Assembly: GCF_025628985.1 (NCBI RefSeq)
Contig: NZ_JAOTEM010000002.1
Location: forward strand, 248,001-312,000
Direction of reading: 5' to 3'
Origin: Chryseobacterium edaphi
GTDB taxonomy: Bacteria > Bacteroidota > Bacteroidia > Flavobacteriales > Weeksellaceae
Length of the DNA stretch: 64,000 bases
In this document: piece by piece, positions 3,935 through 38,408 of the stretch
Layout: every line of letters starts with the position of its first letter
Numbering within the stretch: position 1 is the stretch's first letter
Notes under the pieces: generated by a model
The model's database searches: none
The model's input: the letters and a program-made list of their open reading frames with translations, nothing else
What the model was told of the DNA's origin: nothing
Program-made: the position numbers and the translations under genes

Positions 3935-3936
3935 TC

Positions 3937-16708: not shown

Positions 16709-18013
16709 TTATGACTGATATCCAAGCAATTTCCTCATCTGATAAAAGAATCTTTCAATCAATCTTAAATCCTGGGTCACGATTTCTGCATTTCCTCTTA
16801 ATTCTTTATCAAATTTTAAAGTCTTGTTATAAGAAGTTTTTAAACCTTTAGGCAACACAACATCAACATAATAGTTTCCTTTATCATCGGGAATCAGAGA
16901 AATATTCTGCACTTTTCCTTCGATAATTCCATATTCTTGAAAACGGTAGTTGTCTAATTTAATTAAAACCTTTTCTCCTGGAATAATTTTCCCTGAATTT
17001 GCTGTCGGCACAGACATTCTTCCTACCAATTGTTCTGTATGATCCGGTAAAATTGAGATGATCGGATCTCCAGCTTTTACAAACTGGTTTTCACCAAAAA
17101 ATTGCTGAAAACTCGCCATTCCGTCTGTAGAAGAAATGATGAGATATGTTTGCTCCCACTGTTTTAGCGACTTTCTTAGCTGTTCAAATAACTGCAAAGT
17201 TTGTGAAGAATAATTGATTTTATCTTTCTCGGTATTAATTGCCGTTCCGCTTTTTGTTTTATTTAAATTGGAAATACTTTCCTGCATCTGAGACAAAGAA
17301 ATATTGATGTTTTCTAAATTTTGTTGCGCCTGAAGATATTTAATTTTTTCACCTTCAAGTTCTACGGCAGCAATTACGCCCTGATTGTATAATTCCTGCG
17401 AACGCTGATAACTTTTGCGCGTAAGTTCGGCTTTTGCAGCTTCCAGATTTTTTTGCTGTCTTAAATTGGCAATTCTGCTTCTGGATTCTGAAATGCTTTG
17501 ATTCGCAGCAATATTTTCCGGCGCATAAGGTTGTAATCTTGTGAACAGACTTTCATCCTGAAAAGCTTTAGCGAAACTGTTGTAATCTGCCTGAAGCTCG
17601 CCCAATTTAAAATGAGAAGCTTCATTAACTGGAAATGCCGTTAATTGATTAGACGAAAGAGAATCGACCAGTTTTTTAAGTTTTAAAACATCCTGATAAT
17701 TCGCCGTTGACTGCAAAACAATTAGAACATCTCTTTTTTTTACTTTCGTGTGATCTTTAATAAATATTTTTTCGATTTTTGAACTGCTTCTTGCTTCAAT
17801 TTTCTCAGGCGGATTTTGCGAAGTCACAATAATCGGAGCCGGAACAAATTCCGGATATTTAATGATGTAGCTCATTACTAAAACAAGCAGCAATATGATT
17901 AATATAATTGTATTTCCCCATCGGAACATCCAATGTGGCGGTTCCGTAAGAATATCCTGTACGCTTTCTGAGCGCAACTCAATATTATCTAGTAAATCTT
18001 TTTTAGTTTCCAA
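16709..18013 (-). CDS. HlyD-family membrane fusion protein of the peptide exporter
   Basis: A 434-residue periplasmic adaptor. It has one N-terminal membrane helix (about residues 34-52), a lipoyl-like half (PIIVTSQNPPEKIEARSSSKIEKIFIKDHTKV), a long coiled-coil hairpin (roughly 120-280, with ARSx-type heptads) and a beta-barrel part near VGRMSVPTANSGKIIPGEKVLIKL. It would link the inner-membrane C39-ABC exporter to an outer-membrane channel. It overlaps the ABC gene by 11 bases and is the last gene of the 22514-16709 operon. No TolC-like gene is in the window. Confidence 0.9.
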   Translation of the reverse strand: METKKDLLDNIELRSESVQDILTEPPHWMFRWGNTIILIILLLVLVMSYIIKYPEFVPAPIIVTSQNPPEKIEARSSSKIEKIFIKDHTKVKKRDVLIVLQSTANYQDVLKLKKLVDSLSSNQLTAFPVNEASHFKLGELQADYNSFAKAFQDESLFTRLQPYAPENIAANQSISESRSRIANLRQQKNLEAAKAELTRKSYQRSQELYNQGVIAAVELEGEKIKYLQAQQNLENINISLSQMQESISNLNKTKSGTAINTEKDKINYSSQTLQLFEQLRKSLKQWEQTYLIISSTDGMASFQQFFGENQFVKAGDPIISILPDHTEQLVGRMSVPTANSGKIIPGEKVLIKLDNYRFQEYGIIEGKVQNISLIPDDKGNYYVDVVLPKGLKTSYNKTLKFDKELRGNAEIVTQDLRLIERFFYQMRKLLGYQS

Positions 18014-20198
18014 GTTCTAACTGATTTTTAACAAGCCTGTAATATTCACCTTTTAAAGCAACCAATTCAATATGATTTCCTTCTTCCACCACTTTCCCTT
18101 TATCTAAAACGATAATTTTATCGGCATGTTTTACGGTTGACAATCTGTGAGCAATCACAATGGCTGTTTTGCCTTCGAAAAACTGTTCCAGATTTTCCAT
18201 GATTACCTTCTCATTATTCGCATCTAAAGCACTTGTCGCTTCGTCAAAGAAAATATATTCCGGAGATTTGTAAACCGCTCTTGCTATGAACAATCTTTGT
18301 TTTTGTCCGCCACTTACACCAAGTCCTTCATTTCCGATTTTCGTGTTGTAACTTAACGGCAATCCTTCAATGAACTCTTTGATGTTGGCAATTTCGACGG
18401 CTTTTCTAAGTTTTGTTTTATCTACATAATCTTCACCTACTGCGATATTATTGGCAATCGTATCATTAAAAACATAACCTTCCTGCATCACAACACCGCA
18501 CTGATCTCTCCAGAATCTTGGTGAAATGTTTTTCATCTGGGTATTCCCAATTTTTATTTCGCCCTCATTGGGTTCGTAAAATTTCATTAATAATTTTAAA
18601 AGCGTCGTTTTACCACTTCCGCTGGCTCCGACGATTGCCGTTGTTTTTTGAAAAGGAATATTTAAACTTAAATTTTCAAAAACAGGAACATCCGAACCAA
18701 TGTATCTGAATGACATATTGCTGATTTCGATATCTTTTTCCGGAACTTCGGTGGCATATTGTTCGTCTTTGTTTTCCTCATCTTCCTTATCATGAATTTC
18801 GCCTAATCTTTCCAGAGAAATTTTGGCATCCTGAGTTTGTTTGATAAAGTCAATCAATTGTAATAATGGACTGTTTAATTGACCGATAATGTACTGAACG
18901 GAAAGCATCATCCCCAAAGTAAGATTTCCTTCCAAAACCAATTTGGCAGAAAGAAAACTTACCAAAATATCTTTCATCTGATTGATGAAATTTCCACCGA
19001 CAGACTGCCATTGTTCTAACGAAAGTGATTTTATTCTAAGTTTGAATAATTTAACCTGTAAAAACTCCCAATCCCAACGTTTTTGCTTTTCGGCATTATG
19101 CATTTTGATTTCCTGCATTCCGTTGATAAGCTCAATAACTTTGCTTTGTTCCTGAGAAACCTGTGAAAATCTTTTGTAATCAAGTTCTTTTCTTTTTCCG
19201 AGAAAAAAAGTTATCCATCCAATATATAAAATCGCTCCGACCAAATAAACAACAAACAATCTGTAATCATAAAACAGCAAAACAATACTGAAAATGATTA
19301 AGTTAACCAACGAAAACAAAGTATTGAGCGAAGAATTTGTCAGAAGCTGCTCAATTCTGTGATGATCGTTGATTCTCTGCATAATATCTCCCGTCATTCT
19401 TGTATCAAAGAAACTGATGGGAAGTTTCATTAATTTAATAAAGAAATCTGAGATGATCGAAATATTAATTCTTGTAGAAAGATGAAGCAAAATCCAGCTT
19501 CGGATGACTTCAATTCCCATACGTCCTAAAAACAGCATCACTTGAGCCAGTAAAACCAGATAAATGAAATTCAGATCCTGATTCTGAATCCCCACATCCA
19601 CAATACTTTGGGTAAGAAAAGGAAGGATAAGTGACAATAAACTTCCCGCCAATAAACCAATCGCCAATTGAACGATCAACGATTTGTATTTCAGTAAATA
19701 TTTTGAAAGAAAAGAAAAACTGGCTTTACTTTCCTGATCGTCAAATTCGGTTTGAAAAAATGCGGGAGTCGTCTCAAGAATCAAGACGATTCCTTCCTCC
19801 GTGTTTTCGTTCGCATTTTCGCCAATCCATCGTTTGATAAATTCTTCTCGTGTATAGGTAATCAAACCATAACTAGGGTCAGAAACATAAACGAGATTTT
19901 TTTTATCGATTTTATAAACAACGACAAAATGATTTTTGTTCCAATGTACAATACAAGGAAAAGGAACTTCTTCAGCCAAAGTATTAAAATCGATCTGTAC
20001 TCCCAAAGAACGGAAACCCAAATCTTCTGCAGCATCACTTAAACCCAACAAACTGCTTCCTTCTCTTGTGGTTTCTGAGAGGTTACGGATTTGCTGCAAC
20101 GAAATGCTTTTTCCGTAATGTTTGCTGACTATTCTGAGACATGTGGGACCGCAGTCTTTGGAATCGGGCTGAATATAGTTGGGGAATTTTTTTGCCAA
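18003..20198 (-). CDS. Peptidase C39 domain ABC transporter (bacteriocin/RiPP exporter)
   Basis: A 731-residue fusion. Residues 1-125 are a C39 cysteine protease with catalytic Cys16 (KDCGPTC), His90 (NHFVVVY) and Asp107 (SDPSYG). Residues ~170-450 are the six-helix ABC membrane domain. Residues ~490-731 are the ATPase with Walker A GASGSGKTT (524-532), signature VSGGQKQR (628-635) and Walker B YIFFDEATS. Such proteins cleave leaders after a double glycine and export the core peptide. GG leaders occur in this window at 24716-24889 and 30590-35247, so this is the natural exporter for them (inference). All catalytic residues are intact. Confidence 0.95.
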   Translation of the reverse strand: MAKKFPNYIQPDSKDCGPTCLRIVSKHYGKSISLQQIRNLSETTREGSSLLGLSDAAEDLGFRSLGVQIDFNTLAEEVPFPCIVHWNKNHFVVVYKIDKKNLVYVSDPSYGLITYTREEFIKRWIGENANENTEEGIVLILETTPAFFQTEFDDQESKASFSFLSKYLLKYKSLIVQLAIGLLAGSLLSLILPFLTQSIVDVGIQNQDLNFIYLVLLAQVMLFLGRMGIEVIRSWILLHLSTRINISIISDFFIKLMKLPISFFDTRMTGDIMQRINDHHRIEQLLTNSSLNTLFSLVNLIIFSIVLLFYDYRLFVVYLVGAILYIGWITFFLGKRKELDYKRFSQVSQEQSKVIELINGMQEIKMHNAEKQKRWDWEFLQVKLFKLRIKSLSLEQWQSVGGNFINQMKDILVSFLSAKLVLEGNLTLGMMLSVQYIIGQLNSPLLQLIDFIKQTQDAKISLERLGEIHDKEDEENKDEQYATEVPEKDIEISNMSFRYIGSDVPVFENLSLNIPFQKTTAIVGASGSGKTTLLKLLMKFYEPNEGEIKIGNTQMKNISPRFWRDQCGVVMQEGYVFNDTIANNIAVGEDYVDKTKLRKAVEIANIKEFIEGLPLSYNTKIGNEGLGVSGGQKQRLFIARAVYKSPEYIFFDEATSALDANNEKVIMENLEQFFEGKTAIVIAHRLSTVKHADKIIVLDKGKVVEEGNHIELVALKGEYYRLVKNQLELGN

Positions 20199-20209: not shown

Positions 20210-20632
20210 TTAATTTTTCTTAACTAATTCTTGCATCCCATAATACTTTATCGCTTTCTCTTTAAGAGGATTGGTACTCCATTCTTCCCATTCTCCGGTG
20301 TAAGGATCATACCCACATTTTAAAGGCTTTGAAATATCTAATCCTTCATTATCTTCATGGGTTCTTTCAGTATAAGCTCTGCAATCTTTACAAATATAAC
20401 GAAACTCACAATCTTTACAAACTTCTATTTTATCCTTCGTAAGATTCCAATATTTTTTGAAATCTTTGTGACATAATTCATCTTCCAAAGTTGTGTCTTT
20501 AATATTGCCGAAGCTTTGAGGCATTGAAGGATAATTACGAATATATAGGTTTGCGTACTCACTTTTCAAAACATTATCTAACTCCAAACCAAATGCACAA
20601 CCATTCTGAATTGAAAACAAAAACCAAAGCAA
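20210..20632 (-). pseudogene. Truncated grasp-with-SPASM peptide maturase (C-terminal SPASM part only)
   Basis: About 135 residues matching the C-terminal end of SPASM-domain peptide maturases: EVCKDCEFRYICKDCRAY (C-x2-C-x5-C-x2-C iron-sulfur ligands), then PLKCGYDPYTGEWEEW and the tail KAIKYYGM. The radical SAM-like N-terminal two thirds are absent, and the apparent start at 20632 lies inside a terminator hairpin (20621-20651), so this is probably not expressed. Intact relatives work with an ATP-grasp ligase, which is also missing here. The intact C39 exporter gene follows 11 bases downstream, which suggests that deletion removed the maturase from a once complete cluster. Confidence 0.75.
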
Positions 20633-22847: not shown

Positions 22848-24596
22848 ATGTTCCGATTTTCTTTATTCTTAATTTTTTTAATCTGTCAAAATTTATTCTT
22901 CTCACAAAGTATAAAACACTTCCACATCCCTGATTCTCTTAAAAACAAAAATTATGAGCAACTACAAAATGCTTATGATAAAGTATTCAGAATAGATAAT
23001 AATAAGGCAGAGATATTTGCCAATACAATTTTAAGCAAAGGGAAAAAGGAGAAAAATAGAGATCTTATTTATGATGGCTATTACAAAATTGCACATATAA
23101 AAGGATTGAAATCTGAAAATGGTCATCCATATGCAGATACATTATTATCTATAACACAAAATGTAGATACTAAAGACTATCCAGCAAAAGCACATATTAT
23201 AAAAGGCATTCTATACAATTATGATTGGAAATACAATAAAGCTTTAGATCAATACATTGAAGCGCAAAAATCCTCTAAGAATAAAAATCCTGATCAGTTT
23301 TATTATATCAAGAAACTAATAGGAATTTTAAAAACTGCTACTGATGAAAATGAAGAGGCACTTCCTCTTTTTTTGGAGTATTATAATTACCAAAAGCAAA
23401 AAGTAAACACCGAAAAGAAAGATATTAAAAGCTACATAGGTTCTGTATTTTCAGTATCAAATGCTTACAGCAAAACAAAGAATTATCAAAAAAGTAAACA
23501 ATATAATAAAATCGGAATTTCAGAATGTAAAAAGCACAATGATTATTCACATTATGCTTATTTTCTAATGTCGGAAGGTATTGCCGATTATTATTTAAAA
23601 AATTACAATATTGCCACAGAAAATCTCTTAGTTGTTGAAAAAAAACTTCTAAAGAATGAAGATCATCCTAATTTAGCAATTGTTTATTATTTTTTAGCTA
23701 AAATTAATACCGAAACTAAAAATGAAAAAAAAGCCGTCAACTATTTCATAAAATCAGATTCGCTTTCTTTTGTTTCGAATGAATTTTTGCCAGTAACTAG
23801 AGACGGATATGAAATACTGATAGATTATTATAAGAACAAAGGAGACAAAGAAAACCAACTTAAATATATTAATAAATTATTTCATGCAGACAGTATTATA
23901 AATAATAGTAAGCAATATCTTTCAAAGGAAATTTATAAAAAATATGATACACCCATCTTATTGGAAGAGAAAGAAAAGTTAATTTCTGATTTAAATAACA
24001 AAAATTCTATCTTATACTGGTTTCTCGGTATTGGGTTTTTTACTATTTCAATATTACTTTTCATGTTCATTAAAAATAAGAAGAGAGTAAAAGAATATAA
24101 AAAACAAGCAGAAATTTTATTATCAAAATCAACAAAAGAATTCGAATTCGTACATGAAGTAACGACTAATTCAGATGATTGGATCAACAAAAATTATCCC
24201 CCTCAAGAAAAACCAAAAAATACAGTTCCACATAATATACTAACAGAATTGAAGTTGCAACTTGAGTTATTTGAAACAAAAAAAGAATTCCTTCATAAAA
24301 ACATAACTATAGACGGATTAGCAAAAGAATTTGGAACAAATCGCGACTATCTTTCAAAATCGGTAAATGAAATTAAAGAGCAAAATTTCTCACAATATTT
24401 GAATGAGTTACGGATCAATTATGTCGTGAAAGAATTAAAAAGTAATGAAAAACTGAGGAAATATACAATTTCTGCTATTGCAAGTGAAATAGGATACAAT
24501 AATTCGGAATCATTTTCTAATGCTTTTAAGAAGATAACCGGCACTCTTCCTTCTTTTTACATAAAATTACTCAATCAAGAAACGAACATATTATAA
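22848..24596 (+). CDS. TPR-transmembrane regulator with AraC-type DNA-binding domain
   Basis: A 582-residue one-protein signalling regulator. It has a signal peptide (MFRFSLFLIFLICQNLFFSQ), a periplasmic region of TPR-like helices (about 30-370), one membrane helix (about 387-408) and a cytoplasmic AraC/HTH_18 domain (about 480-575) with ITIDGLAKEFGTNRDYLSKSVNEI and YTISAIASEIGYNNSESFSNAFKKITG. This architecture is common in Flavobacteriia. It is divergent from the six-Cys/exporter operon and directly upstream of the lanthipeptide-like operon, so it probably controls one or both; paired direct repeats lie upstream. The ligand is unknown. Confidence 0.85.
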   Translation: MFRFSLFLIFLICQNLFFSQSIKHFHIPDSLKNKNYEQLQNAYDKVFRIDNNKAEIFANTILSKGKKEKNRDLIYDGYYKIAHIKGLKSENGHPYADTLLSITQNVDTKDYPAKAHIIKGILYNYDWKYNKALDQYIEAQKSSKNKNPDQFYYIKKLIGILKTATDENEEALPLFLEYYNYQKQKVNTEKKDIKSYIGSVFSVSNAYSKTKNYQKSKQYNKIGISECKKHNDYSHYAYFLMSEGIADYYLKNYNIATENLLVVEKKLLKNEDHPNLAIVYYFLAKINTETKNEKKAVNYFIKSDSLSFVSNEFLPVTRDGYEILIDYYKNKGDKENQLKYINKLFHADSIINNSKQYLSKEIYKKYDTPILLEEKEKLISDLNNKNSILYWFLGIGFFTISILLFMFIKNKKRVKEYKKQAEILLSKSTKEFEFVHEVTTNSDDWINKNYPPQEKPKNTVPHNILTELKLQLELFETKKEFLHKNITIDGLAKEFGTNRDYLSKSVNEIKEQNFSQYLNELRINYVVKELKSNEKLRKYTISAIASEIGYNNSESFSNAFKKITGTLPSFYIKLLNQETNIL

Positions 24597-24658
24597 ATTG
24601 AAAATCAACAACTTACAAATAAAAACACACGGTATTGATAAATTTCGAGATCAATATT

Positions 24659-24689
24659 TTTGGTCGACTTATGAATTAGAGTTTATTTG
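24659..24689 (+). promoter_or_regulatory. Promoter of the lanthipeptide-like operon
   Basis: TTTG (24659-24662), 19 bases, then TTTATTTG (24682-24689), which differs from TAnnTTTG at one defined position. This is the ideal Bacteroidetes -33/-7 spacing, 26 bases before the precursor ATG. Confidence 0.6.
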
Positions 24690-24715
24690 CAGCTTAATTT
24701 AAAATTTTAATCAAA

Positions 24716-24889
24716 ATGAAAAAACAGAAACAAGTAGAAAAAAAATTGTCATTAAAAAAATTACAGATGACTAAAATCACAAGTAGATTGAATTCTATTA
24801 GAGGAGGAGATAATGGTGTTGGTAATGATACCGTTTTGGATGAAACTTTCACAAAAAGTAAAAACAAAAATGGTGGTATTGAAAACTAA
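24716..24889 (+). CDS. Class I lanthipeptide-like precursor without cysteine
   Basis: A 57-residue peptide. The leader contains KKLSLKKLQMTKITSRLNSIRGG; the KKLSLKKL-x-M/I-x-K-I/L pattern and terminal GG are typical of Bacteroidetes class I lanthipeptide leaders. The core after GG (about 26 residues, DNGVGNDTVLDETFTKSKNK plus GGIEN) has Thr and Ser for dehydration but no Cys anywhere, so no lanthionine ring can form within it. The split LanB genes follow in the same operon and no LanC is present. The C39 exporter at 18003 could cut after GG. Identification as the LanB substrate is inference from leader and position. Confidence 0.75.
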   Translation: MKKQKQVEKKLSLKKLQMTKITSRLNSIRGGDNGVGNDTVLDETFTKSKNKNGGIEN

Positions 24890-24901
24890 TCAATTACTTT
24901 A

Positions 24902-27151
24902 ATGAAAAAAATTTTCTTCATATATTTTATCTTTTTCTCACAATTTGTTTTTTGTCAAAAAATAAGTTTACAAGAATTTATTAAAACTGATTCTTCAAAT
25001 TTTAAAAATATTGCTAAATATTTAGCGAAAGAAGTCGAGGTTAAATACAAAGAAAAAGATTCTGCTGCGTATTATGATAATCTTTTTAGAATAAATCTGG
25101 TAAATGAAAAATATGATTTAGCACTTTATCACCTTAATCTTGTTAGGGACATTTATACAAAAAGAAATCCCGCTCTGTCTAAGGAAATGGGAAGCCAATT
25201 TGAAATTTACATTAATACTATAAAAAGATTAAATTACAACAAAGATTTTGATAAAATATATGAAGAAGAATTTAGAAAAAAATATAAAAATCTATCTTTA
25301 AAATCACAAATTACTTTTCCACAGTATTTTATTTATAATAAAATACAAACGAAAAAAGACATTGAAGAAATAATAATAAAAAATATCAAAGAGGGAAGTA
25401 TTGAGATCAAAGATGCTGTACAATTATGTAGAAAATATAATACTTATAATATAGGTGGAAAAACATTTGATCTAGGAACTAAGTTAATTAAAAAACTTGA
25501 AAAGGAAGATTTTATAATTTATGATAGCATAAAAGTTATTACAAAAAACAATGAGATACTTACACTCAGCATCATATTAAGTAACAAGAATAAAACTGCT
25601 CAAAATACTATCCTTATAAATACTATCTATTCAGATACAGATAATATAGCTGAAGCAAAACAATATGCAATCAATGGCTATGCAGCAGCGATAGTAAATA
25701 CGCGTGGTAAATATTTAAGCCCAAATGCAATTGAACCTTTTGAACATGAGTCAGAAGATATCAATGAAGTTATTGATTGGATTATAAAACAGCCGTGGAG
25801 TAATGGAAAAGTAGGAATGATCGGCGGAAGCTATTTAGGTTTTAGCCAATGGGCCGCAACAAAGCAATTGCATCCTGCATTGAAAACAATAATACCTCAA
25901 GCATCTGTAGGAATTGGCAGTATGGATTTTCCTATGAATAACAATATATATTCATCTTATTTTTTGCGCTGGCTAAATTACGTAATGAATACAAAAATGA
26001 CAGATTATGATGATTTTTCTAATTTAGAAAAGTGGAATTCTATATATAAAAAATGGTATGAAAGTGGAAAACCTTTCAACAAGCTAGATTCTATTAGCGG
26101 AAAACCAAATACTATTTTCCAACGATGGCTTTCTCATCCCAGCCATGACAACTACTGGCAAAAAATGGTTCCATATAAAAAAGAATTTTCTAAAATCAGT
26201 ATTCCTATTCTTACAACAACTGGTTATTATGACACAGACCAGTTAGGAGCATTGTATTATTTTAGAGAACATTATAAATATAATAAAAACGCTAATCATT
26301 ATTTAATTATTGGACCATATGATCATTCCGGAGCTCAAGGAAATATAAAAAGTGATTTGAAAGGCTATAATGTGGATCAAGTGGCCAATATTGATTTAGA
26401 TAAAATTTGTATTGAATGGTTTGACTATGTATTAAAGAATAAAAAGAAACCTGAATTTCTAAAAAATAAAATAAATTATCAAGTTATGGGTACTAATCAA
26501 TGGAAAAGTACAAATTCCATACATGATTTTGATAATAATAAAATGAAATTTTATTTGGAAAATAAAGATAATAACTACATCTTATCAAAATCAAAACTAA
26601 GTAATAAAAGTTTTTCATCCCTTAAAGTTGATTATAAAAACAGATCCGATGCTGATGAATTGCTCAAACTGGAATATGATGTAATTGAAGATACTATTTA
26701 TAATAAAAACAATTTGATTTTCTCTACGGATGCATTTGAAAAACCATTTGAATTATCTGGTAATTTTTCAGGTAATTTAAAATTTTCAATGAATAAAAAA
26801 GACTGTGATGTTTTGATGTGCTTATATGAGCTTATGCCTAATGGAAAATATTTTTTATTATCAACATATTTAGGAAGAGCAAGCTATGCAAAAAATAGTA
26901 AAAAAAGAAATTTGCTTACACCAAATAAAAAAGAAACGGTCTCGATATACAATAATGAATTTGTAAGTAAAAAAATAGAGGCAGGAAGCAAATTAGTTCT
27001 GACAGTCGGTATTAATAAGAGTCCTTACTATCAAATTAACTACGGCACAGGAAAAGACGTAAGCGAAGAAACAATAGCTGATGCAAGAGAACCTTTGGAA
27101 ATAAAATGGTATAACGACAGTTATATTGAAATTCCAATTCTAAAAGAATAA
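24902..27151 (+). CDS. Exported CocE/NonD (S15-like) hydrolase
   Basis: A 749-residue protein with a signal peptide (MKKIFFIYFIFFSQFVFCQ), an N-terminal helical region of ~200 residues of unknown role, and an X-Pro dipeptidyl-peptidase/CocE alpha/beta hydrolase domain. Nucleophile Ser310 lies in GMIGGSYLGF; the acid is probably Asp444 in GYYDTDQLGA and the base His475 in GPYDHSGAQ. The C terminus is the usual jelly-roll domain. It starts 12 bases after the precursor and ends 2 bases before lanB, so it is part of the pathway operon. Trimming of the exported peptide, or degrading it for self-protection, are both possible (inference). Confidence 0.82.
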   Translation: MKKIFFIYFIFFSQFVFCQKISLQEFIKTDSSNFKNIAKYLAKEVEVKYKEKDSAAYYDNLFRINLVNEKYDLALYHLNLVRDIYTKRNPALSKEMGSQFEIYINTIKRLNYNKDFDKIYEEEFRKKYKNLSLKSQITFPQYFIYNKIQTKKDIEEIIIKNIKEGSIEIKDAVQLCRKYNTYNIGGKTFDLGTKLIKKLEKEDFIIYDSIKVITKNNEILTLSIILSNKNKTAQNTILINTIYSDTDNIAEAKQYAINGYAAAIVNTRGKYLSPNAIEPFEHESEDINEVIDWIIKQPWSNGKVGMIGGSYLGFSQWAATKQLHPALKTIIPQASVGIGSMDFPMNNNIYSSYFLRWLNYVMNTKMTDYDDFSNLEKWNSIYKKWYESGKPFNKLDSISGKPNTIFQRWLSHPSHDNYWQKMVPYKKEFSKISIPILTTTGYYDTDQLGALYYFREHYKYNKNANHYLIIGPYDHSGAQGNIKSDLKGYNVDQVANIDLDKICIEWFDYVLKNKKKPEFLKNKINYQVMGTNQWKSTNSIHDFDNNKMKFYLENKDNNYILSKSKLSNKSFSSLKVDYKNRSDADELLKLEYDVIEDTIYNKNNLIFSTDAFEKPFELSGNFSGNLKFSMNKKDCDVLMCLYELMPNGKYFLLSTYLGRASYAKNSKKRNLLTPNKKETVSIYNNEFVSKKIEAGSKLVLTVGINKSPYYQINYGTGKDVSEETIADAREPLEIKWYNDSYIEIPILKE

Positions 27152-27153
27152 AA

Positions 27154-29358
27154 ATGCCCCAATTCCCTTATCATTTTTTTGAAGAGTATATCGTACGTAC
27201 TCCCATATTTTCACGCAGAAATTTTCAGGGAAAAGCATACAAAGAAACATTTTCGGATGGAGAATTAAAAGAAATTTGCAGTAATTCGGTTTTTCAGGAG
27301 GCAATTTATCTCGCGTCTCCCAATTTATATAAAGAATTAAAAAACTGGTTAGATTCAAAAAAAGAATTATCCACAAGTCAACACCAAAAACTTAAAAACA
27401 CCATCTTAAAATACTACACGAGAATGAGTACAAGATGTACCCCATTCGGATTATTTTCAGGAGTTGGCTTGGGGAAATTTAATAATCAAAGAGAAAATGA
27501 CAAACTTTCTGACAACATCAAATTACAATCAGTAAGGGATACAAAATTAGATATGCATTTGCTGGATACTCTCGCGAAGACTTTAGAGAAAAATCCAAAC
27601 ATCAGAAATCAACTTCTTTATTCCCAAAATAATAGTATTTATAAAATAGGGAAGAAAATTCGTTACGTAGAGTACGAATATAAAGATGGAAAAAGAGATT
27701 ACATTATTTCGTCTGCTCCACTTTCTGAAGAGTTATTTCAGATATTAGATTTCTCAAAACAAGGAAAAACAATCTCGCAGATTGCAGAAATTCTTATAAG
27801 TGATGAAATAAGCTATGAAGAAGCTAATGAATTCATAGAAGAATTAATTGACAATCAGGTTTTGATAAGCGAACTGGAGCCCAATGTTTCAGGATGCGAT
27901 TTTTTAGACACTCTAATTTCTGTTCTAAGCCGAATTGAAGCTAAAAATAAGACCGCCATTTTAATTTCGATAAAAAATAAACTAGCCGAATTGGACTTAA
28001 AGATCGGAAACCAAGTTTCTTTATACTCAGAAATTGAAGATCTGATTAAATCTTTCAAAACAGATTATGAGCAAAAATATCTCTTCCAAACGGACGTATA
28101 CTTTAAAGATAAAATTACAATTTCAACTCATTGGAAAAAAGAAATTAAAAAAGGCTTGAGTTTTCTCAATAAGATTACTTTACTAAGCAAAGACACACCT
28201 ATTGAACATTTTAAAAAAGCCTTTTACGAAAGATTTGAAACTCAGGAAGTACCTTTATCATATGTATTGGATACAGAAATAGGTATAGGCTACCTTCAAA
28301 ACAAAAGTGTTAAAGGAATTCATCCTTACATAGATGATTTAAAACTTAATAATTCTCAAAAGAAACAAAATTTCCATATTAAGCTAACTCCATTTCAGAT
28401 GATACTTAATGAAAAATTACAGGAAGCTTTATTAGAAAAACAATTTACAATCTCATTAAAAGATGATGATATTAAAGACTTTGAAGAAAAATGGTATGAT
28501 TTGCCCGATACTTTATCTGTAATGGTAGAAATCATTTCTGAAAACAATCAAGAGAAGTTATGCATCGGAAGTACAGGAGGTAGCAGTGCTGCAAATCTTT
28601 TAGGAAGATTCTGCTCTGAAAAATCACAAGTACAGAACCTAACTAAAACAATTACACAAAAAGAAGAAGAGCTAAACCCAGACTGTATTTTAGCAGAAAT
28701 TATCCACCTTCCCGAAGCCAGAATCGGAAATGTAATCAGAAGACCAACACTAAGGAAATACGAAATTCCGTATTTGGCACAATCCGTTTTGTCAAAAGAA
28801 AATCAAATAGTGGTTGATGATCTGTATATTTCTTTGAAAAACGATCGAATCATATTACGTTCTAAAAAATTCGATAAAGAAATTATGCCTCATCTAACAA
28901 ACGCTCATAATTATTATACCAATACCTTACCTGTTTATCACTTCTTGTCAGATCTGAATTCACAAAATACTCGGACAGGTTTATACTTCAATTGGGGAGG
29001 TCTTTCTCAGATTTATAAATTTCTGCCAAGAGTCGAATATGGAAACATCATTTTATCAAAAGCTCAATGGAATATCACAGAAAAAGAAATTGCTGCAATA
29101 GAGTCATTGCTGGAAAATAAAAATGAATTCCTTTCACTAATGAAAATATGGCGAAGCAAAAGACAAATTCCTAAATGGATTCAGTGGGTAAAATCTGATA
29201 TTACGTTACCGATGAATTTGGCAAATTACGATATGGCTCAACTCTTTGTACATACCATAAAAAGTGAAAAATCAATCACTATTGAAGAATTTTTGTATAA
29301 TGAAAATGACGATTTCATGCGAGAATTTATATTCCCGATGTACAGAGAAAAGCTCTAA
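27154..29358 (+). CDS. lanB: Lantibiotic dehydratase, glutamylation part (split LanB)
   Basis: A 734-residue Lant_dehydr_N protein. The signature YYTRMSTRCTPFGLFSG is at residues 87-103, and EARIGNVIRRPTLRKYEIP and HLTNAHNYYTNTLPVYHFL follow in the second half. In class I lanthipeptide synthesis this part uses glutamyl-tRNA to glutamylate Ser/Thr. The elimination part is a separate gene at 29405, as in pinensin-type Bacteroidetes clusters. Start at 27154 lies 2 bases after the hydrolase stop. No LanC-type cyclase gene is near, so the likely product is a dehydrated peptide. Confidence 0.9.
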   Translation: MPQFPYHFFEEYIVRTPIFSRRNFQGKAYKETFSDGELKEICSNSVFQEAIYLASPNLYKELKNWLDSKKELSTSQHQKLKNTILKYYTRMSTRCTPFGLFSGVGLGKFNNQRENDKLSDNIKLQSVRDTKLDMHLLDTLAKTLEKNPNIRNQLLYSQNNSIYKIGKKIRYVEYEYKDGKRDYIISSAPLSEELFQILDFSKQGKTISQIAEILISDEISYEEANEFIEELIDNQVLISELEPNVSGCDFLDTLISVLSRIEAKNKTAILISIKNKLAELDLKIGNQVSLYSEIEDLIKSFKTDYEQKYLFQTDVYFKDKITISTHWKKEIKKGLSFLNKITLLSKDTPIEHFKKAFYERFETQEVPLSYVLDTEIGIGYLQNKSVKGIHPYIDDLKLNNSQKKQNFHIKLTPFQMILNEKLQEALLEKQFTISLKDDDIKDFEEKWYDLPDTLSVMVEIISENNQEKLCIGSTGGSSAANLLGRFCSEKSQVQNLTKTITQKEEELNPDCILAEIIHLPEARIGNVIRRPTLRKYEIPYLAQSVLSKENQIVVDDLYISLKNDRIILRSKKFDKEIMPHLTNAHNYYTNTLPVYHFLSDLNSQNTRTGLYFNWGGLSQIYKFLPRVEYGNIILSKAQWNITEKEIAAIESLLENKNEFLSLMKIWRSKRQIPKWIQWVKSDITLPMNLANYDMAQLFVHTIKSEKSITIEEFLYNENDDFMREFIFPMYREKL

Positions 29359-29404
29359 GATTAGTAGTCCCGGCTCAGATAAAAGTACAAAAGAATAAAG
29401 ATAA

Positions 29405-30265
29405 ATGACGAACAAAAGAAAATTTATACCAGGAGATGAATGGCTTTATCTGAAAGTTTATGCAGGAATTACAACTGCAGATATTATTTTGGAAGAAGCT
29501 ATACAATCCTTAGCAGAATATTTTCAGGAAAATAACTATATCTCCAAATGGTTTTTCATTCGCTATCATGATCCAAAACCGCATTTGAGAATAAGATTTT
29601 TTTTAAATCAATCTAAAGATTATTTAACAGTTCTAAATAAAATTACAAACGAGCTTCAAGAGTTTACAAATAATGGAGAAATTTCAAATATTTTAGCTGA
29701 AACTTATAGCAAAGAAATTGAGCGTTACGGGCAAAGCACCATAGAAGACGCCGAAACGTTATTTCATAAAAATAGCGAATTTACCTTGCTGTGTTTGCCA
29801 TACGATGATGAAGATAAGTTGATATTCAGTATTTTTTATATTAATGAAATATTGAATAATCTTAATCTTGATATTCAGGAAAAGCTCGTCTGGATTAAAA
29901 ATTTTAATGATTGTTTTAAAGAAGAATTTAATGCCAATAAAAATCTCAACAGTCAGTTAGATAAAAAATATAGAGCGTTTAAACCGAAGTTGATGAACTT
30001 CATGTATTCGGATGAGTTTTCGGATGAAAGAAATGCCATTATTCTTCATATCGAAGAATGTGACACTGTATTAAAACAGGTTCTTCAGCGTTCTCAAAAG
30101 CAATCTCTGGAAGTTGCTTTACAAAGTTTTTTTCAAAGTATATTCCATATGAACATCAATAGACTTTTTGTTTCTAATCAAAGATTGTTTGAGATGATTA
30201 TTTATGATTATCTAGTAAGGTATTATAAATCATTAGCATTTTACAACCTCCATGAAAAAGCTTGA
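29405..30265 (+). CDS. LanB elimination subunit (thiopeptide-type / SpaB_C domain)
   Basis: A 286-residue SpaB_C-like protein. The N-terminal part GDEWLYLKVYAGITTADIILEEAI and the motif WFFIRYHDPKPHLRIRFF (residues ~54-71) are the family hallmarks; the Arg and His residues here act in glutamate elimination in NisB-like enzymes. Together with the 27154 product it would form a complete dehydratase turning Ser/Thr into dehydroalanine/dehydrobutyrine. It lies 46 bases downstream in the same operon. Family assignment is firm; activity on the cysteine-free precursor is inferred. Confidence 0.88.
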   Translation: MTNKRKFIPGDEWLYLKVYAGITTADIILEEAIQSLAEYFQENNYISKWFFIRYHDPKPHLRIRFFLNQSKDYLTVLNKITNELQEFTNNGEISNILAETYSKEIERYGQSTIEDAETLFHKNSEFTLLCLPYDDEDKLIFSIFYINEILNNLNLDIQEKLVWIKNFNDCFKEEFNANKNLNSQLDKKYRAFKPKLMNFMYSDEFSDERNAIILHIEECDTVLKQVLQRSQKQSLEVALQSFFQSIFHMNINRLFVSNQRLFEMIIYDYLVRYYKSLAFYNLHEKA

Positions 30266-30341: not shown

Positions 30342-30476
30342 ATGATAAAAATAACTGACCTGGAATGGCAAAGAATTACAAAACTTTTGGATGTTGAAAT
30401 TGAAGAAATTTATGAAGAACACATTGAACAAAATACAATTAACTTAAAAGAAGAGTTACAACTATTGAAAGAGTAA
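30342..30476 (+). pseudogene. C-terminal fragment of an XRE-type regulator
   Basis: A 44-residue frame (ITDLEWQRITKLLDVEIEEIYEE...) similar to the post-HTH part of the regulator remnant at 34165-34452 (HDEEWQKIANALDVPVEEIKEE). The helix-turn-helix itself is missing, so it is a remnant or a very short stand-alone protein. It is downstream of the LanB genes and just before the 30519 terminator. Confidence 0.55.
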
Positions 30477-30518
30477 AATTAAAATTTTAGAACAAAAATT
30501 TAGCATATTATTATTAAG

Positions 30519-30550
30519 AAAGAGACTGTATTCAGTCTCTTTCTTTTTTT
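30519..30550 (+). terminator. Terminator of the lanthipeptide-like operon
   Basis: Perfect stem AAAGAGACTG (30519-30528), loop TATT, CAGTCTCTTT (30533-30542), followed on the plus strand by a seven-T run. Confidence 0.85.
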
Positions 30551-30589: not shown

Positions 30590-30745
30590 CTATACATACT
30601 GCGGACAAACAACTGCCGGACAGTAGATTTTCGGACATCTTGGTCTGCCGTCAGTAGGACAGCAAGCAGTTGAGCAGCCGATTATCGGTCCTGATCCCAA
30701 GATGTCTTTCATTTCGTTTCTTGCTAATTTTTTCAAATTTTTCAT
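30590..30745 (-). CDS. GG-leader-type cysteine-rich peptide precursor 1
   Basis: A 51-residue peptide beginning MKNLKKLARNEMKDILGSG; the usual GG is changed to GS-G. The core is rich in Cys and Pro (GCSTACCPTDG, RCPKIYCPAVVCPQ; six Cys). It is a close relative of the adjacent peptide at 30758-30904 (same CSxACCP and RCP blocks). Such peptides are often labelled bacteriocin-like in Flavobacteriia. Third of three tandem precursors downstream of the VKOR-thioredoxin gene. The altered GG may impair C39 cleavage. Confidence 0.7.
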   Translation of the reverse strand: MKNLKKLARNEMKDILGSGPIIGCSTACCPTDGRPRCPKIYCPAVVCPQYV

Positions 30746-30757
30746 AAGATTAATTTT

Positions 30758-30904
30758 TTAAGATTCTACGGGACATGCAATAATACAAATAACATTAGGA
30801 CATCTTTTTATTCCCGGAGGTGGGCAACATGCTTGAGAGCAACCTGCAGCTCCACCATTAATGTCTTTCATTTGACTTCTTGATACTTTTTTTAAATTTT
30901 TCAT
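30758..30904 (-). CDS. GG-leader cysteine-rich peptide precursor 2
   Basis: A 48-residue peptide: leader MKNLKKVSRSQMKDINGG, core starting AAGCSQACCPPPGIKRCPN and ending IACPVES, with five Cys in the core. It pairs with precursor 1 as a recent duplicate. A 12-base gap separates its stop from the precursor 1 start codon. The GG is intact and fits the C39 exporter at 18003. Confidence 0.72.
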   Translation of the reverse strand: MKNLKKVSRSQMKDINGGAAGCSQACCPPPGIKRCPNVICIIACPVES

Positions 30905-30934
30905 AATACTGTAATTTAGTTTGTTTGATGATTA

Positions 30935-31078
30935 TTATGGCTGGTTTCCACCACCGCATCCGTCGTAAGGCATGCATTTCCATTTTCCGTCGATCAGGCA
31001 AAGTTGTCCACCTTTGCAGGTAAGACCTCCCTGAATCGTTTTCATTTCCTGTCGGTTGATTTTTTTTAAATTTTTCAT
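30935..31078 (-). CDS. GG-leader cysteine-rich peptide precursor 3
   Basis: A 47-residue peptide: leader MKNLKKINRQEMKTIQGG; core LTCKGGQLCLIDGKWKCMPY followed by DGCGGGNQP, with four Cys. The core differs from precursors 1 and 2 and resembles the 35092 peptide in its CKxGxxxC and DGKxxC blocks. It is first of the three tandem precursors and is preceded 22 bases upstream by the conserved element at 31100-31137. Confidence 0.72.
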   Translation of the reverse strand: MKNLKKINRQEMKTIQGGLTCKGGQLCLIDGKWKCMPYDGCGGGNQP

Positions 31079-31175: not shown

Positions 31176-32684
31176 TTACGCAGGAAAATCTTCATCCTCA
31201 ATTAATTCGCTGATAAAATAGTTAATATCTTCACGGTCATATTTATCCGGAAACTGATAACCATTGATGATAAAGACCGGTGTAAAATTAAGTCCGGCTG
31301 AACTATTTTCTGCAGTCATCTGAATAATATTGGCAAGATCTTGCGGATTTTCTGTTCCCGATTTTCTCCTAATTTCACTCTCATCTTTATTTTTAAACCA
31401 AATATCTACAGAATTTAAAAATTCTTTTTGTGATTTGTTGTTATAAATGCTCAAAAAATCTGAAATAAGCCGAGTATATTTTTCATCAGCTCTTTCATTT
31501 GAATAGTTGAACCTCATCTGTGCAGAAATTTCATCAGGATATTGCAATAATAAATCTTCTACAATCTTATGAGCGTCCTTACAAAATCCACAGTAGGGAT
31601 TAGAAACAACAGAAATATGAAGTTTTGCATCTATGTTTCCTACGAAAAATGTCTGTTGATCAGAAAACTCAATTTTTTCATTATCGGTAAGTTCTCTTTT
31701 GAACAGATCATAATTTCTTTTAAATCTTAAATTTTTTGAGTTAGATTTTTTGAGTTCTTCCTTTTGATTCATCAGATTGTTTAAAAAAGCAACCGTAAAA
31801 AATAGAGAAATAAATAATATGACACTCGTAAAGATAACAGGCATATTTATTTCCCAACTAAAATAGAAAGAACTTAATGCGATCTGACCCAGCAAAACAA
31901 AAATAATCACCAGACATACTCTACATAACGATTTTTCTACAAAAGCCTGAACATAAAATGAGTAAAGAATCACCAGAACCGAAATCATTGAAGTAATACG
32001 CAAAATAACCTGTGACTGCGGAAGAACAAGCCCGACAAACGTAATTCCCAAGAAATAAATTAAGCTAAAATCTGAAAGTTTCAGTCCTAAAACATCTGTT
32101 TTATCGGAAGAAAAAATCTTTGAACATGAACTTTGAGAAGAACTATTGGCAGCACCACCGCAAATATTACTAACAACAGCAGATTCCTGACCAAATTTCT
32201 GATTAAAAAGCTCTAACGATATGTAAACTCCAACCAATGACAATAAGTTGAAAACACTTTCGTACCAGGTAAACTGGAGAAACGAATAAAGAATAATAAT
32301 CGCAAAAACTAAGTAAATTATGGGTCTAAAGTTGAAAAAAGATTTTGTTTTTACATTTTCAGTTTTTTCAAAAAGAAGTACGAAATCTCCGGAATTTTTG
32401 TAAAGCTCTTCCTTATTCAGCGTTTTTATTTTATCTGAATAAATTGTAAAATCGTTTCCTTTCTTTTTGACTAAAGAAAACGAATTATCAACCAAAGCCA
32501 TGTATTCTTCCGGCAATTCGTCCCAATATTCTTTGTCTAATTCGTAGGCATCATTTTTTAATCCCAAAAAATTGAGAGTATCGCTGAAAGCCAATGCTGA
32601 AGGGTAATTGGGATGAGAATTGAACTGAAAATAAAATTCCTGTTTGTCGAGCTTAAAATGGTCTATGAGTTTGTCGAAATTCAT
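31176..32684 (-). CDS. VKOR-thioredoxin fusion with inactive C39-like N terminus
   Basis: A 502-residue membrane oxidoreductase. Residues 1-105 resemble a C39 peptidase domain without a catalytic Cys. Residues ~120-300 are a VKOR four-helix domain with Cys175, Cys187 and the CRVC pair (254-257). Residues ~340-502 are a periplasmic thioredoxin/DsbA-like domain with NPYCGFC (CGFC, 365-368). VKOR-Trx fusions make disulfide bonds. Here the gene lies directly upstream of three cysteine-rich precursors, so oxidative folding of the exported peptides is the likely job, with the C39-like domain perhaps binding GG leaders (inference). A broken duplicate of its 5' end lies at 32872-32945. Confidence 0.85.
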   Translation of the reverse strand: MNFDKLIDHFKLDKQEFYFQFNSHPNYPSALAFSDTLNFLGLKNDAYELDKEYWDELPEEYMALVDNSFSLVKKKGNDFTIYSDKIKTLNKEELYKNSGDFVLLFEKTENVKTKSFFNFRPIIYLVFAIIILYSFLQFTWYESVFNLLSLVGVYISLELFNQKFGQESAVVSNICGGAANSSSQSSCSKIFSSDKTDVLGLKLSDFSLIYFLGITFVGLVLPQSQVILRITSMISVLVILYSFYVQAFVEKSLCRVCLVIIFVLLGQIALSSFYFSWEINMPVIFTSVILFISLFFTVAFLNNLMNQKEELKKSNSKNLRFKRNYDLFKRELTDNEKIEFSDQQTFFVGNIDAKLHISVVSNPYCGFCKDAHKIVEDLLLQYPDEISAQMRFNYSNERADEKYTRLISDFLSIYNNKSQKEFLNSVDIWFKNKDESEIRRKSGTENPQDLANIIQMTAENSSAGLNFTPVFIINGYQFPDKYDREDINYFISELIEDEDFPA

Positions 32685-35901: not shown

Positions 35902-37800
35902 ATGATGAAATATTTTATATTGTTCTGCGTGTTTAGCAGTATTTTTTTCATGGGTCAGAAGAAAGATCCTGAGATTGAAAAAATGCTGACAAAGTACAGA
36001 AGTAATTTAAGCGAGAATTTAGATTCTTCTTTCTATTATATAAACAAAATCAAAATTATAAGTGAACATAAAGGCGATAATTTTTACCTGTCAAAAGGAT
36101 TTTATGGATTAGGTTACTGTTATTATAAAAAAGGAGATATACAAAAAGCTCAAAAATATATTTCCACGTCTATCCCAATTGCTGTCAAATCTAAAAACTT
36201 TCAAACACTCGCTTTAGCTTACAATCAATTGGGGCTGATTAAAAATAACGAGAGTAATTATCCAGTTGCAATACAATTATTCTTAAAATCATTAAAAATA
36301 TCAGAGAAAAATGAACTTAATGAGAAGAGTTTTGCTTTAAAAAATTTAGGAAATCTTTTTTTATCTCAAAACGACACCACTCAAGCGATAAAGTATTTTG
36401 AAGAAGATTACCTTTTTACAAAAGAAAAGAAATTAATTCCCGAACAATTCGGAAGCTGTAATAATCTGGGATTAATTTTGCGAAAGAAAAATCCCGGTTT
36501 AGCATTGCAATATTTTAATACCGCTCTTTCTACCGCGAAAAAACTTGATAATAAAAGATGGCAGTATGATGTTCATATAAATTTATCAGTGCTTTATATG
36601 AGTGCTAATGAATATAAAGACTATAACAAAACTATAATTCACCTGAAAAATGCGAAAAAACTGATTGACGAAATTGGGGATTCAAATTTATATTTTTTAT
36701 ACTACTATAACTTTGGCGGTTATTATTACAAAAAAGGTCAATATTCTAATGCTGTAGATTATTATTTCAAAGCTGAAAAAATTGTCCAAAATTCTTCTAT
36801 TCCTTTAGATTATAAAATTTCTTTGATGGATGATCTTCATTCAGCGCTCGAAAACAACGGTGATTATAAAAAAGCTTATCAATACCAGAAAATTTATCAC
36901 AAGCTCAATGACAGTATTTTCAGTGTAGAAAAAGCCAAAAACATCAACGAAATCATTACCAAATATGAAGTTGATAAAAAAAACAGTCAAATAAAATTAC
37001 TCAATCAGCAGAAAGAATTTCAGGAGAAAAAAAGCAAATTAGTGTTGATCAGTTCTCTTTTATTCATTTTAATTTTAATTGGATTTTTGTATTTTGTTTA
37101 TAAAAAGTCACAGTTTCAGAAAAGACTGAGGCATCAGGAAAACATAAATTATCATCAGGAAAAAGAAAAATTAATACAGAACCAAAAGCTCAATGAAATG
37201 AGTGCAGTAATAAAAGGTCAGGATTTTGAGAGAAACAGAATTGCAAAGGACCTTCACGATGGTGTTGCCGGAGATTTGGCAGGAATAAAACTTTTATTAG
37301 CTAAAGAAAATTTGGATCTTAATAATAAAAATCTGGAAAAAATTCAGGATAATCTTTCTGATGTATTTCAGGAAATAAGGCAAATTTCGCATAATCTGAG
37401 TCTCAATAATCTTAAAGACAAAAACCTTAAAGATCTTTTATTAGATTTGGAATTAAATTACCAAAAAAGGAATGAATTCAATTTTGAGGTTCATATTTAT
37501 CCCGAAGATGCAGTTGATGATTTAAGCGAAATAAACAAAATCAACATCTACAGAATTTTACAGGAATTGCTGAGTAATATTTCTAAACACGCAAAAGCAA
37601 CTGAAGTAGAATTATCCATCAACAGACACCTGAATGAGATTAATATCATCATCACCGATAACGGAATAGGATTCAGCATTGACAAAAAAGGAGTTGGCCT
37701 AAATAATATTCAGGAAAGATTGCAGACAATATCGGGCGAGATCAATATTCAGTCAGATTTAAATAAAGGCACATCAATAGTTATTGAGCTAAAATTATGA
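35902..37800 (+). CDS. TPR-containing histidine kinase (NarX/DesK-like)
   Basis: A 632-residue sensor: signal peptide (MMKYFILFCVFSSIFFMGQ), periplasmic TPR helices (~30-350), one membrane helix (~378-400), a coiled coil, a HisKA_3 phosphoacceptor (DFERNRIAKDLHDGVAGDLAG) and a HATPase domain (ITDNGIGFSIDKKGVGLNNIQERL). Its last codon overlaps the response regulator start (ATGA at 37797-37800). It belongs to the peptide island: divergent from a small exported protein and 0.7 kb upstream of a GG-leader peptide. Signal unknown. Confidence 0.88.
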   Translation: MMKYFILFCVFSSIFFMGQKKDPEIEKMLTKYRSNLSENLDSSFYYINKIKIISEHKGDNFYLSKGFYGLGYCYYKKGDIQKAQKYISTSIPIAVKSKNFQTLALAYNQLGLIKNNESNYPVAIQLFLKSLKISEKNELNEKSFALKNLGNLFLSQNDTTQAIKYFEEDYLFTKEKKLIPEQFGSCNNLGLILRKKNPGLALQYFNTALSTAKKLDNKRWQYDVHINLSVLYMSANEYKDYNKTIIHLKNAKKLIDEIGDSNLYFLYYYNFGGYYYKKGQYSNAVDYYFKAEKIVQNSSIPLDYKISLMDDLHSALENNGDYKKAYQYQKIYHKLNDSIFSVEKAKNINEIITKYEVDKKNSQIKLLNQQKEFQEKKSKLVLISSLLFILILIGFLYFVYKKSQFQKRLRHQENINYHQEKEKLIQNQKLNEMSAVIKGQDFERNRIAKDLHDGVAGDLAGIKLLLAKENLDLNNKNLEKIQDNLSDVFQEIRQISHNLSLNNLKDKNLKDLLLDLELNYQKRNEFNFEVHIYPEDAVDDLSEINKINIYRILQELLSNISKHAKATEVELSINRHLNEINIIITDNGIGFSIDKKGVGLNNIQERLQTISGEINIQSDLNKGTSIVIELKL

Positions 37801-38408
37801 AGAACACAATAAAGATTGCTATCATAGACGATCATCTTATTTTTTTGAAAGGTCTTACGATGCTTTTGGAACAGGATGATGAGTTTGAAGTAATATATGC
37901 CTTCAGCAACTATTCCGATTTATTAAAGAGCTTAAAGCTTCAAAAACCCGACTTATTGATAACCGATATTTCAATGCCGGAAATCAATGGTATTGAGCTC
38001 TCCAAAATGGTAAGGCAAATTTACCCAACTATAAAAATCATGGTGATGAGTTCTTATTCTAATATGATATCTGCTTCCGATGTCGATGGTTATTTGCTAA
38101 AAGATACAAACTCTGAAATACTGATTGAAAGCATCAAAAAAATTGTATTGAATAACGAGAAAGTTTTTCATAAAGATTTTAAGACAGATAAAAAATATGA
38201 ATTTAATAAAAGTATCGTAAGCAAAAGAGAAAAAGAGATCATCAATTTTATATGTAAAGGTTGTACAACCGATGAAATATCCGAAAAACTCTTCATCAGT
38301 AAACATACGGTAGAGACGCACCGAAAAAACATTTTTAACAAACTACAGGTAAATAATATTGCTGGATTGGTGAAAAAATCAATTAGTTTAGGGATCATTG
38401 ATATTTAG
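37797..38408 (+). CDS. LuxR-family response regulator
   Basis: A 203-residue two-domain regulator. The receiver has the acidic pair DD at 11-12, phosphoacceptor Asp57 (LLITDISMPE) and the GYLLKDT lysine near 100. The C-terminal LuxR HTH reads SKREKEIINFICKGCTTDEIS then KHTVETHRKNIFNKL. Translationally coupled to the kinase. Likely targets are the palindrome at 35873-35892 and perhaps the peptide gene at 38502 (inference). Confidence 0.9.
   Translation: MKNTIKIAIIDDHLIFLKGLTMLLEQDDEFEVIYAFSNYSDLLKSLKLQKPDLLITDISMPEINGIELSKMVRQIYPTIKIMVMSSYSNMISASDVDGYLLKDTNSEILIESIKKIVLNNEKVFHKDFKTDKKYEFNKSIVSKREKEIINFICKGCTTDEISEKLFISKHTVETHRKNIFNKLQVNNIAGLVKKSISLGIIDI

Follow-up and report, generated by a model that had tools for sequence, protein, structure and literature searches.

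A 64 000-nucleotide stretch of the Chryseobacterium edaphi genome (hereafter the window; contig NZ_JAOTEM010000002.1, assembly GCF_025628985.1, positions 248 001–312 000) contains a class I-type operon for a ribosomally synthesized and post-translationally modified peptide (RiPP) that has no LanC cyclase and, in our assessment, rather probably yields a linear dehydrated peptide acting as a secreted signal. In the list of open reading frames (ORFs), four plus-strand genes within 24716–30265, separated by 12, 2 and 46 bases, encode a Cys-free precursor of 57 aa, an exported-type S15 serine hydrolase and the two halves of a split LanB dehydratase, in agreement with a preliminary description of the stretch. 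That description overlooked that the hydrolase stands in the LanC position of relatives and is interchangeable with S9 and S8 proteases, that an upstream regulator with tetratricopeptide repeats (TPR) and an AraC-type domain belongs to the system together with a palindrome, and that a cassette made up of regulator, precursor and protease moves as one unit ahead of LanB. The genes, catalytic residues, LanC absence, slot replacement, regulator linkage, palindrome and cassette exchange rest on sequence. A linear dehydrated product is predicted with good confidence, whereas peptide sensing by the regulator, the least certain step, is plausible without being favoured. To our knowledge, few defined peptide signals are known in Bacteroidota, and an operon type that recurs in dozens of relatives may represent an unrecognised class of them.

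LanC absence and the slot protease

Close loci in the collection of named genomes numbered three, all Chryseobacterium; genomes of the genus, family and order were sampled beyond that collection. The genus scan covered 173 genomes, 131 of which carried a LanB relative, and 100 regions were fetched from the listed LanB matches (not all of them). With the window added, the close group (clade A) comprises 82 loci whose LanB N half (LanB-N) is at least 50% identical. The distant group (clade B) comprises 19 loci with 30–41% LanB identity, hand-picked from weaker matches, and is a sample of mostly split LanBs from which many fused ones were left out. The pairing of leader and LanB, proposed earlier as a check in relatives, recurs in 74 of the 82 clade-A loci of the genus (window included), within a layout larger than first described.

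No match to the LanC family PF05147 was found at E ≤ 1 in the whole host genome (4.12 Mb, 99.99% complete), which extends the absence previously claimed for the window. The slot directly before LanB-N, held by LanC in 16 of the 19 clade-B loci, is occupied in clade A by an S9 prolyl-oligopeptidase-like gene (60 of 82 loci) or an S15 gene (17), with neither within the distance rule in five; L033 and L090 were scored as empty although an S9 gene sits farther upstream. LanC occurs in one clade-A region (L093), ~5 kb upstream on the other strand, and a LanC match is absent from 39 of the 92 genomes carrying a clade-A-type LanB, a set that includes partial matches. Exported status was assigned to the slot proteases from an N-terminal hydrophobic segment, present in 76/78. 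Triad-type residues (S310, D444/D446 and H475) are invariant in 19/19 aligned S15 members, the window included, and the solved structure nearest to the window hydrolase by sequence is cocaine esterase. A single LanB in L031 is preceded by a series of protease genes (a fragmented S15, then S9 and S15; 1282–7990 with LanB on the plus strand), which looks like accumulation or decay of cassettes.

The layout is kept in seven close loci (L134–L140) that belong to three further genera of the family. Twenty further regions come from other families of the order, probably mostly Flavobacteriaceae. In five of these an S8 subtilase lies in or beside the slot (L149, L151, L154 and L158 by Pfam; L157 by similarity), four of the five with an adjoining TPR-AraC gene; S9 was seen in one (L152) and LanC in four (L143, L144 and L145; L160 by Pfam). 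Another LanC-free layout is found in seven (L146, L147, L148, L150, L153, L155 and L156), where the TPR-AraC gene lies directly 3′ of the split LanB, with no slot gene and no recognised precursor. Neither pattern appears in L159 (fused LanB), L161 (dehydrogenase-like gene) or L162. The use of three protease families for the same slot points towards a proteolytic function and away from a family-specific reaction, and the tenure of the LanC slot by an exported protease suggests that dehydroamino acids are an end in themselves.

Precursor and core peptides

The leader of the window precursor matches LxLxKx5L, with Ile replacing the last Leu, and ends in GG. It scores 13 bits on the NCBIfam class I leader model NF038153 (cut-off 22), and the precursor matches no Pfam family and no NCBIfam family above cut-off; the class I-like leader proposed earlier is supported by motif and GG end and falls short on the model, which 14 of the 77 clade-A precursors match at E ≤ 0.1. 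These 77 were recognised in 74/82 loci, with possible extra Cys-free ones in L031 and L047 uncounted. Comparison of the window precursor with that of L075 gives 73% identity over 48 aa.

The 26-residue core of the window contains no Cys, which is unremarkable by chance and notable against the LanC-linked precursors of the genus. Cores are not always Cys-free, as the preliminary description had proposed to check: 43 of the 77 clade-A precursors have none, 34 have exactly one and none has two or more. By contrast, all eight LanC-linked cores carry 3–5 Cys each (at least two core Cys in 0/77 vs 8/8; Fisher p = 2e-11, uncorrected for relatedness), and the precursors of L141, L142 and L143 agree (3–5 Cys each). 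The eight come from only 4/19 clade-B loci, since clade A supplied the training set of the leader model. They were counted up to 4 kb upstream of LanB on the same strand, a rule under which three precursors go uncounted: one-Cys ones in L117 (S9 cassette) and L118 (minus strand), and one with 4 Cys, lying downstream, in L132. The first two are cassette-type precursors near LanC-type LanB operons (L117 at ~6.3 kb before LanB, with an S9 gene present); no clade-A LanB was seen in either region, and they are possibly orphan cassettes.

Thr outnumbers Ser in clade-A cores (237 vs 118). Of the dehydration sites suggested earlier, KSK lies outside the recurring motif, to which the two Thr of T-[VI]-[VLI]-[DE]-x-T belong (9/77 precursors, plus L135). 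All nine precursors with the extended form [ND]xT[VI][VLI][DE]xT, including that of the window, are Cys-free; eight belong to S15 loci, and the remaining one (L056) stands before an S15 gene although its slot gives it the label S9. Pro-Thr cores form another recurring type, mostly with S9. Among one-Cys cores, C..P[ED]N[AG]S-like ends go with S9 and TTSKNC with S15; aligned by eye to the latter type, the window core has Lys at that Cys position. Length and C-terminus differ among cores.

The split LanB

PF14028 has one match in the host genome at E ≤ 0.01, the C half of this LanB (LanB-C), and a separate LanB-C follows LanB-N in 82/82 clade-A loci. Residues R15, R90, R94, T96, D133, D314 and R485 of the window LanB-N, which we take to be counterparts of NisB residues from motif spacing, NisB numbering and MibB and MadB alignments, are conserved, as are R62, R64, E104, R107 and H248 of LanB-C. 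Across clade A, the counterparts of NisB R83, R87, D121, D299 and R464 are kept in 82/82 loci, R14 in 81/82 and T89 in 78/82; in the C half, the RxR pair and the counterparts of E823 and R826 are kept in 82/82 and that of H961 in 80/82. Mutation identified R14, R83, R87, T89 and H961 of NisB as important (PMC4341554, available text), and likewise R786, R826 and H961, whose Ala variants transfer glutamate without elimination (PMC4979651, available text). D121A and D299A have little effect on NisB (PMC4341554, same portion), so that conservation at these two positions carries little weight.

With both domains and the catalytic residues kept, the LanB looks complete. Dehydration is likely because these residues are intact and because seven dehydrations were obtained in E. 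coli with a LanB from Chryseobacterium (PMC9993889, available text). The earlier idea of a LanB working without a cyclase on a Cys-free precursor therefore stands: the layout is lineage-wide and a linear dehydroamino-acid peptide, with dehydrobutyrine or dehydroalanine residues, is the most likely product.

TPR-AraC regulator and cassette exchange

The regulator comprises a hydrophobic segment (residues 1–19), a TPR superhelix (~29–330), a transmembrane (TM) segment (388–406) and an AraC-type helix-turn-helix (HTH; 491–571). Its AlphaFold model (mean predicted local distance difference test 82) contains the superhelix, a long TM helix and the HTH domain, and the Phi3T phage Rap together with its pheromone is its top-ranked Protein Data Bank match (E 1.4e-6, TM-score 0.39 by query). 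The central TM segment is predicted in 75/75 regulators. In 75/82 clade-A loci vs 1/19 LanC-type loci, the 7.5 kb upstream of LanB include a relative of the regulator, and 277–538 bases separate it from the precursor stop codon in 71 of the 72 loci with both placed. Further TPR sensors with histidine-kinase-type ATPase domains (the second below cut-off) are encoded on the plus strand at 35902–38408 and 55833–58147, each followed by a response-regulator gene (the first judged by eye).

Mantel tests used the 68/82 loci with a single full-length protease and regulator. Regulator and protease distances in the S9 group (n = 54) correlate at r = 0.93 (0.92 given LanB; 0.92 without near-duplicates, n = 48), whereas regulator and LanB given protease correlate at −0.01, though the protease and LanB genes adjoin. 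Over all 68 loci, protease family follows the regulator (0.56 given LanB) and not LanB (−0.10 given regulator). Core sequence tracks the protease given LanB (S9 0.52, S15 0.81) more than LanB given the protease (0.29 and 0.19). Nine pairs among the 68 loci have LanBs at least 75% identical and regulators below 45%. The window and L032, for instance, have LanBs 80% identical and a common downstream flank (75–98%), and differ in protease family, regulator (31% identity) and regulator strand. L075 and L090, in the same genome, have LanB-N 92% and regulators 39% identical, with S15 vs S9. Because cassettes are swapped directly between similar LanBs, species descent alone is insufficient: the sequences indicate that regulator–precursor–protease cassettes are exchanged between closely similar LanBs.

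Palindrome, promoter-like and terminator-like elements

Loci with a co-directional regulator have a common palindrome before the precursor (consensus CGAAATTGATCAATTTCG), ~86 nt upstream in most (57–99 nt); the window copy matches at 15/18 positions. A degenerate pattern modelled on the window copy has one match in the genome at up to one mismatch, here, and none in the control. In 47 divergent S9 loci, a different candidate palindrome, like ATAAATTTATAAATTTAT, appears in the alignment consensus at a similar distance. A strict Bacteroidetes-type promoter pattern was found in 7/74 precursor upstream regions vs one in the control (a LanB-internal stretch per clade-A locus). Scans of the region gave no excess over shuffles for sigma-70 promoters (33 sites vs 34.8) or terminators (2 sites, the 13-bp stem among them, vs 1.9). 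The single promoter claimed earlier fits the palindrome and TTTG boxes 5′ of the precursor and the stem behind LanB-C, and is not proven. A 44-aa ORF at 30342–30476 (plus strand), between LanB-C and this stem, may belong to the transcript; it has no Pfam or NCBIfam family match.

Proposed mechanism

We hypothesize that operon expression is driven by the TPR-AraC regulator, bound to the palindrome that precedes the precursor gene. The LanB halves would glutamylate and then eliminate core Thr or Ser, most likely the recurring Thr of TVLDET, giving dehydrobutyrine, and the product would stay linear because there is neither Cys nor LanC. The single C39 exporter of the genome may remove the GG leader and export the core, which the exported serine protease, of family S15 in the window and of S9 or S8 in relatives, would trim outside the cytoplasm in the manner of LanP. 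The mature peptide could then be read by a periplasmic TPR domain of the regulator, closing an autoinducing loop. More tentatively still, the loci may form a Gram-negative pheromone family of dehydrated, mostly linear RiPPs, in which a common LanB serves interchangeable TPR-AraC/precursor/protease cassettes (S8, S9, S15) that set specificity, LanC having been lost and its slot taken by a protease. Should the regulator indeed read the peptide, Bacteroidota would have here a quorum-sensing system whose cassette logic can be tested.

Several observations weigh against these proposals. LanC is commoner in genomes with this LanB (53/92) than in the rest of the genus (30/81; p = 0.009), and in the one-Cys cores one thioether might possibly form even in the absence of LanC. 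A precursor but no S9 or S15 gene was seen in L080 and L087, and in L061 precursor, protease and regulator are all unrecognised. In the S15 group without near-duplicates (n = 12), the correlation of the regulator is stronger with LanB (0.79 given protease) than with the protease (0.39 given LanB). Only 28/75 regulators pass a simple test of N-terminal hydrophobicity, which makes the periplasmic placement of the TPR domain uncertain, and Pins and LGN chains score like Rap, so that the TPR match is generic. The operon contains no exporter, and a C39 protein, found in 169/173 genomes of the genus, is so nearly universal that it says little about this operon.

Alternative explanations

It is unlikely, though the most credible of the alternatives, that the product is an antimicrobial or other effector and not a signal, with the protease serving maturation or self-protection and the regulator sensing something else. 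Antibiotics make up most of the LanB products whose function is known, immunity could consist in degradation of the peptide by the protease, and four of the five regulator matches in the host genome lie elsewhere; yet the regulator covaries with the protease and not with LanB in the S9 group, the palindrome is single in the genome, and the plus-strand ORFs of the operon include no evident immunity or efflux gene. We give still less credit to a split LanB that only glutamylates, or that adds an amino acid in a tRNA-dependent manner. LanB-like proteins with other chemistry are known, but peptide aminoacyl-tRNA ligases (PEARLs) are without an elimination domain, whereas here LanB-C is always present with its R, E, R and H residues conserved. 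A tRNA-dependent ligase has been described (PMC10979984, available text); as for glutamylation alone, the NisB variants R786A, R826A and H961A still transfer glutamate but do not eliminate it (PMC4979651, available text).

A slot protease acting as a macrocyclase, comparable with PCY1 (S9) or PatG (S8), would give a head-to-tail cyclic dehydropeptide. Its position where relatives keep their ring-former and the description of S9a and S8 family macrocyclases (PMC4979651, available text) fit this idea, which we nevertheless regard as very unlikely: three families including S15 serve the slot, the S8 and S9 families are also both named as LanP leader-protease types (PMC7268733, available text), and the cores vary in length and C-terminus. 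The earlier suggestion of rings with Cys of another peptide, or thiol addition to the dehydroamino acids, is highly improbable and found no positive support. Three tandem short Cys-rich GG-leader peptides (30590–31078, minus strand) adjoin the operon and have a similar leader style, and the product of a Chryseobacterium LanB acquired glutathione adducts in E. coli (PMC9993889, available text). However, the three peptides are on the opposite strand beyond the terminator-like stem, stay beside LanB in L032 despite its different cassette, and are not what follows LanB in L033 and L035, where other genes stand; an adjoining VKOR–thioredoxin fusion gene (31176–32684) suggests disulfides, and they are probably a group of disulfide-containing exported peptides. 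Least probable of all is that an unrecognised cyclase, or a LanC missing from the assembly, closes rings, with the true substrate encoded elsewhere. One-Cys relatives could form one ring and LanC occurs somewhere in over half of the genomes with this LanB, but it has no match in a practically complete host genome and none in 39 of those 92, and the window core has no Cys.

Features of the window

The features on which the analysis rests are listed in Table 1. The C39 peptidase domain of the exporter lies at 19821–20177 and is the sole C39 match of the host genome. Near the exporter, a 140-aa piece (20210–20632, minus strand) with a weak SPASM match (PF13186, below cut-off) may be what is left of a radical-SAM RiPP maturase, or a shortened version of one.

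Table 1. Coordinates, strand and supporting evidence of the operon and associated features in the window (ABC, ATP-binding cassette).
Feature	Position	Strand	Evidence and remarks
Precursor peptide	24716..24889	+	57 aa; GG leader end at residues 30–31; Cys-free core DNGVGNDTVLDETFTKSKNKNGGIEN; family alignment of 77
S15/CocE-type serine hydrolase	24902..27151	+	749 aa; N-terminal hydrophobic segment; PF02129 9.4e-37, PF08530 6.6e-9
LanB N half, glutamylation domain	27154..29358	+	PF04738 1.2e-141
LanB C half, glutamate-elimination domain	29405..30265	+	PF14028 2.5e-59, TIGR03891 1.4e-58
Transmembrane TPR-AraC regulator	22848..24596	+	582 aa; PF12833 7e-14; hydropathy; AlphaFold model
Operator-like palindrome CGGTATTGATAAATTTCG	24630..24647	+	First base 86 nt 5′ of precursor start; putative operator
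TTTG-type promoter-like boxes, conserved	24655..24689	+	TATTTTTG 24655–24662; TTTATTTG 24682–24689; 13 intergenic regions aligned
Terminator-like 13-bp stem and T tail	30516..30545	+	Likely operon end
C39-peptidase ABC exporter	18003..20198	-	Sole C39 match of genome; putative role in GG-leader removal
HlyD-type adaptor adjoining exporter	16709..18013	-	PF13437 1.9e-11

Comparison with known systems

Bacteroidetes class I precursors have an LxLxKx5L leader with a GG end, and C39 proteases are often encoded with them (PMC7268733, available text). The operon shares with class I lanthipeptides this leader motif and the LanB domains and catalytic residues, and departs from them in the NF038153 score, the Cys-free core and the missing LanC. 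Having neither Cys nor LanC, it is by definition not a lanthipeptide operon; in function it resembles the first half of a class I pathway joined to a LanP-type protease. Pinensin, a class I product of Bacteroidota, likewise has a split LanB (PMC7268733, available text). Both pinensin and the ChmABC system of Chryseobacterium OV715 are LanB-based, but with LanC and Cys-containing cores, both of which the window lacks. The survey in PMC7268733, as its available text describes it, used LanC as its search handle and removed ORFs lacking a core Cys, so that this operon was out of reach of its pipeline; lanthipeptide mining built on LanC and on core Cys loses such operons. LanB is reported absent from Bacteroidales (PMC10352776, available text), and the terms 'LanB' and 'LanC' do not occur in the available text of a biosynthetic gene cluster survey (PMC10734526). 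In the open-access literature searched, no description was found of LanB operons that lack both LanC and core Cys and have a protease in place of LanC.

LanP proteases are serine proteases in lanthipeptide-type operons, with a subtilisin-like (LanPA) and a prolyl oligopeptidase (LanPB) type (PMC7268733, available text). The slot enzymes resemble them in being serine proteases in such an operon, of exported type as judged from the N-terminal hydrophobic segment only, and S9 and S8 versions occur in relatives. The window enzyme differs in being S15/CocE-like, a family not among the LanP types named in the available part of that source, and in holding the LanC position. A PF14028 partner with conserved residues sets the LanB apart from PEARLs. 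Its nearest solved structures by sequence, MadB (9g04/9g05) and MibB (5ehk), are single chains of 1038 and 1115 aa, whereas the window LanB is split.

The exchange of cassettes recalls the pherotype loci agr and ComQXP, in which the processing enzyme varies in concert with precursor and receptor and the three are swapped as a unit; the proteins are unrelated, and only in the S9 group is the covariation clear here. In RRNPP systems (Rap/Phr, PlcR/PapR), an exported precursor is processed by extracytoplasmic proteases and the peptide is re-imported to a cytoplasmic TPR receptor. The proposed system would share with them an exported precursor, processing outside the cytoplasm and a TPR receptor, for which Rap of Phi3T is the closest fold match, equalled by generic TPRs. 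It would differ in a regulator predicted to span the membrane and carrying an AraC HTH, in a periplasmic sensor and in a dehydrated peptide.

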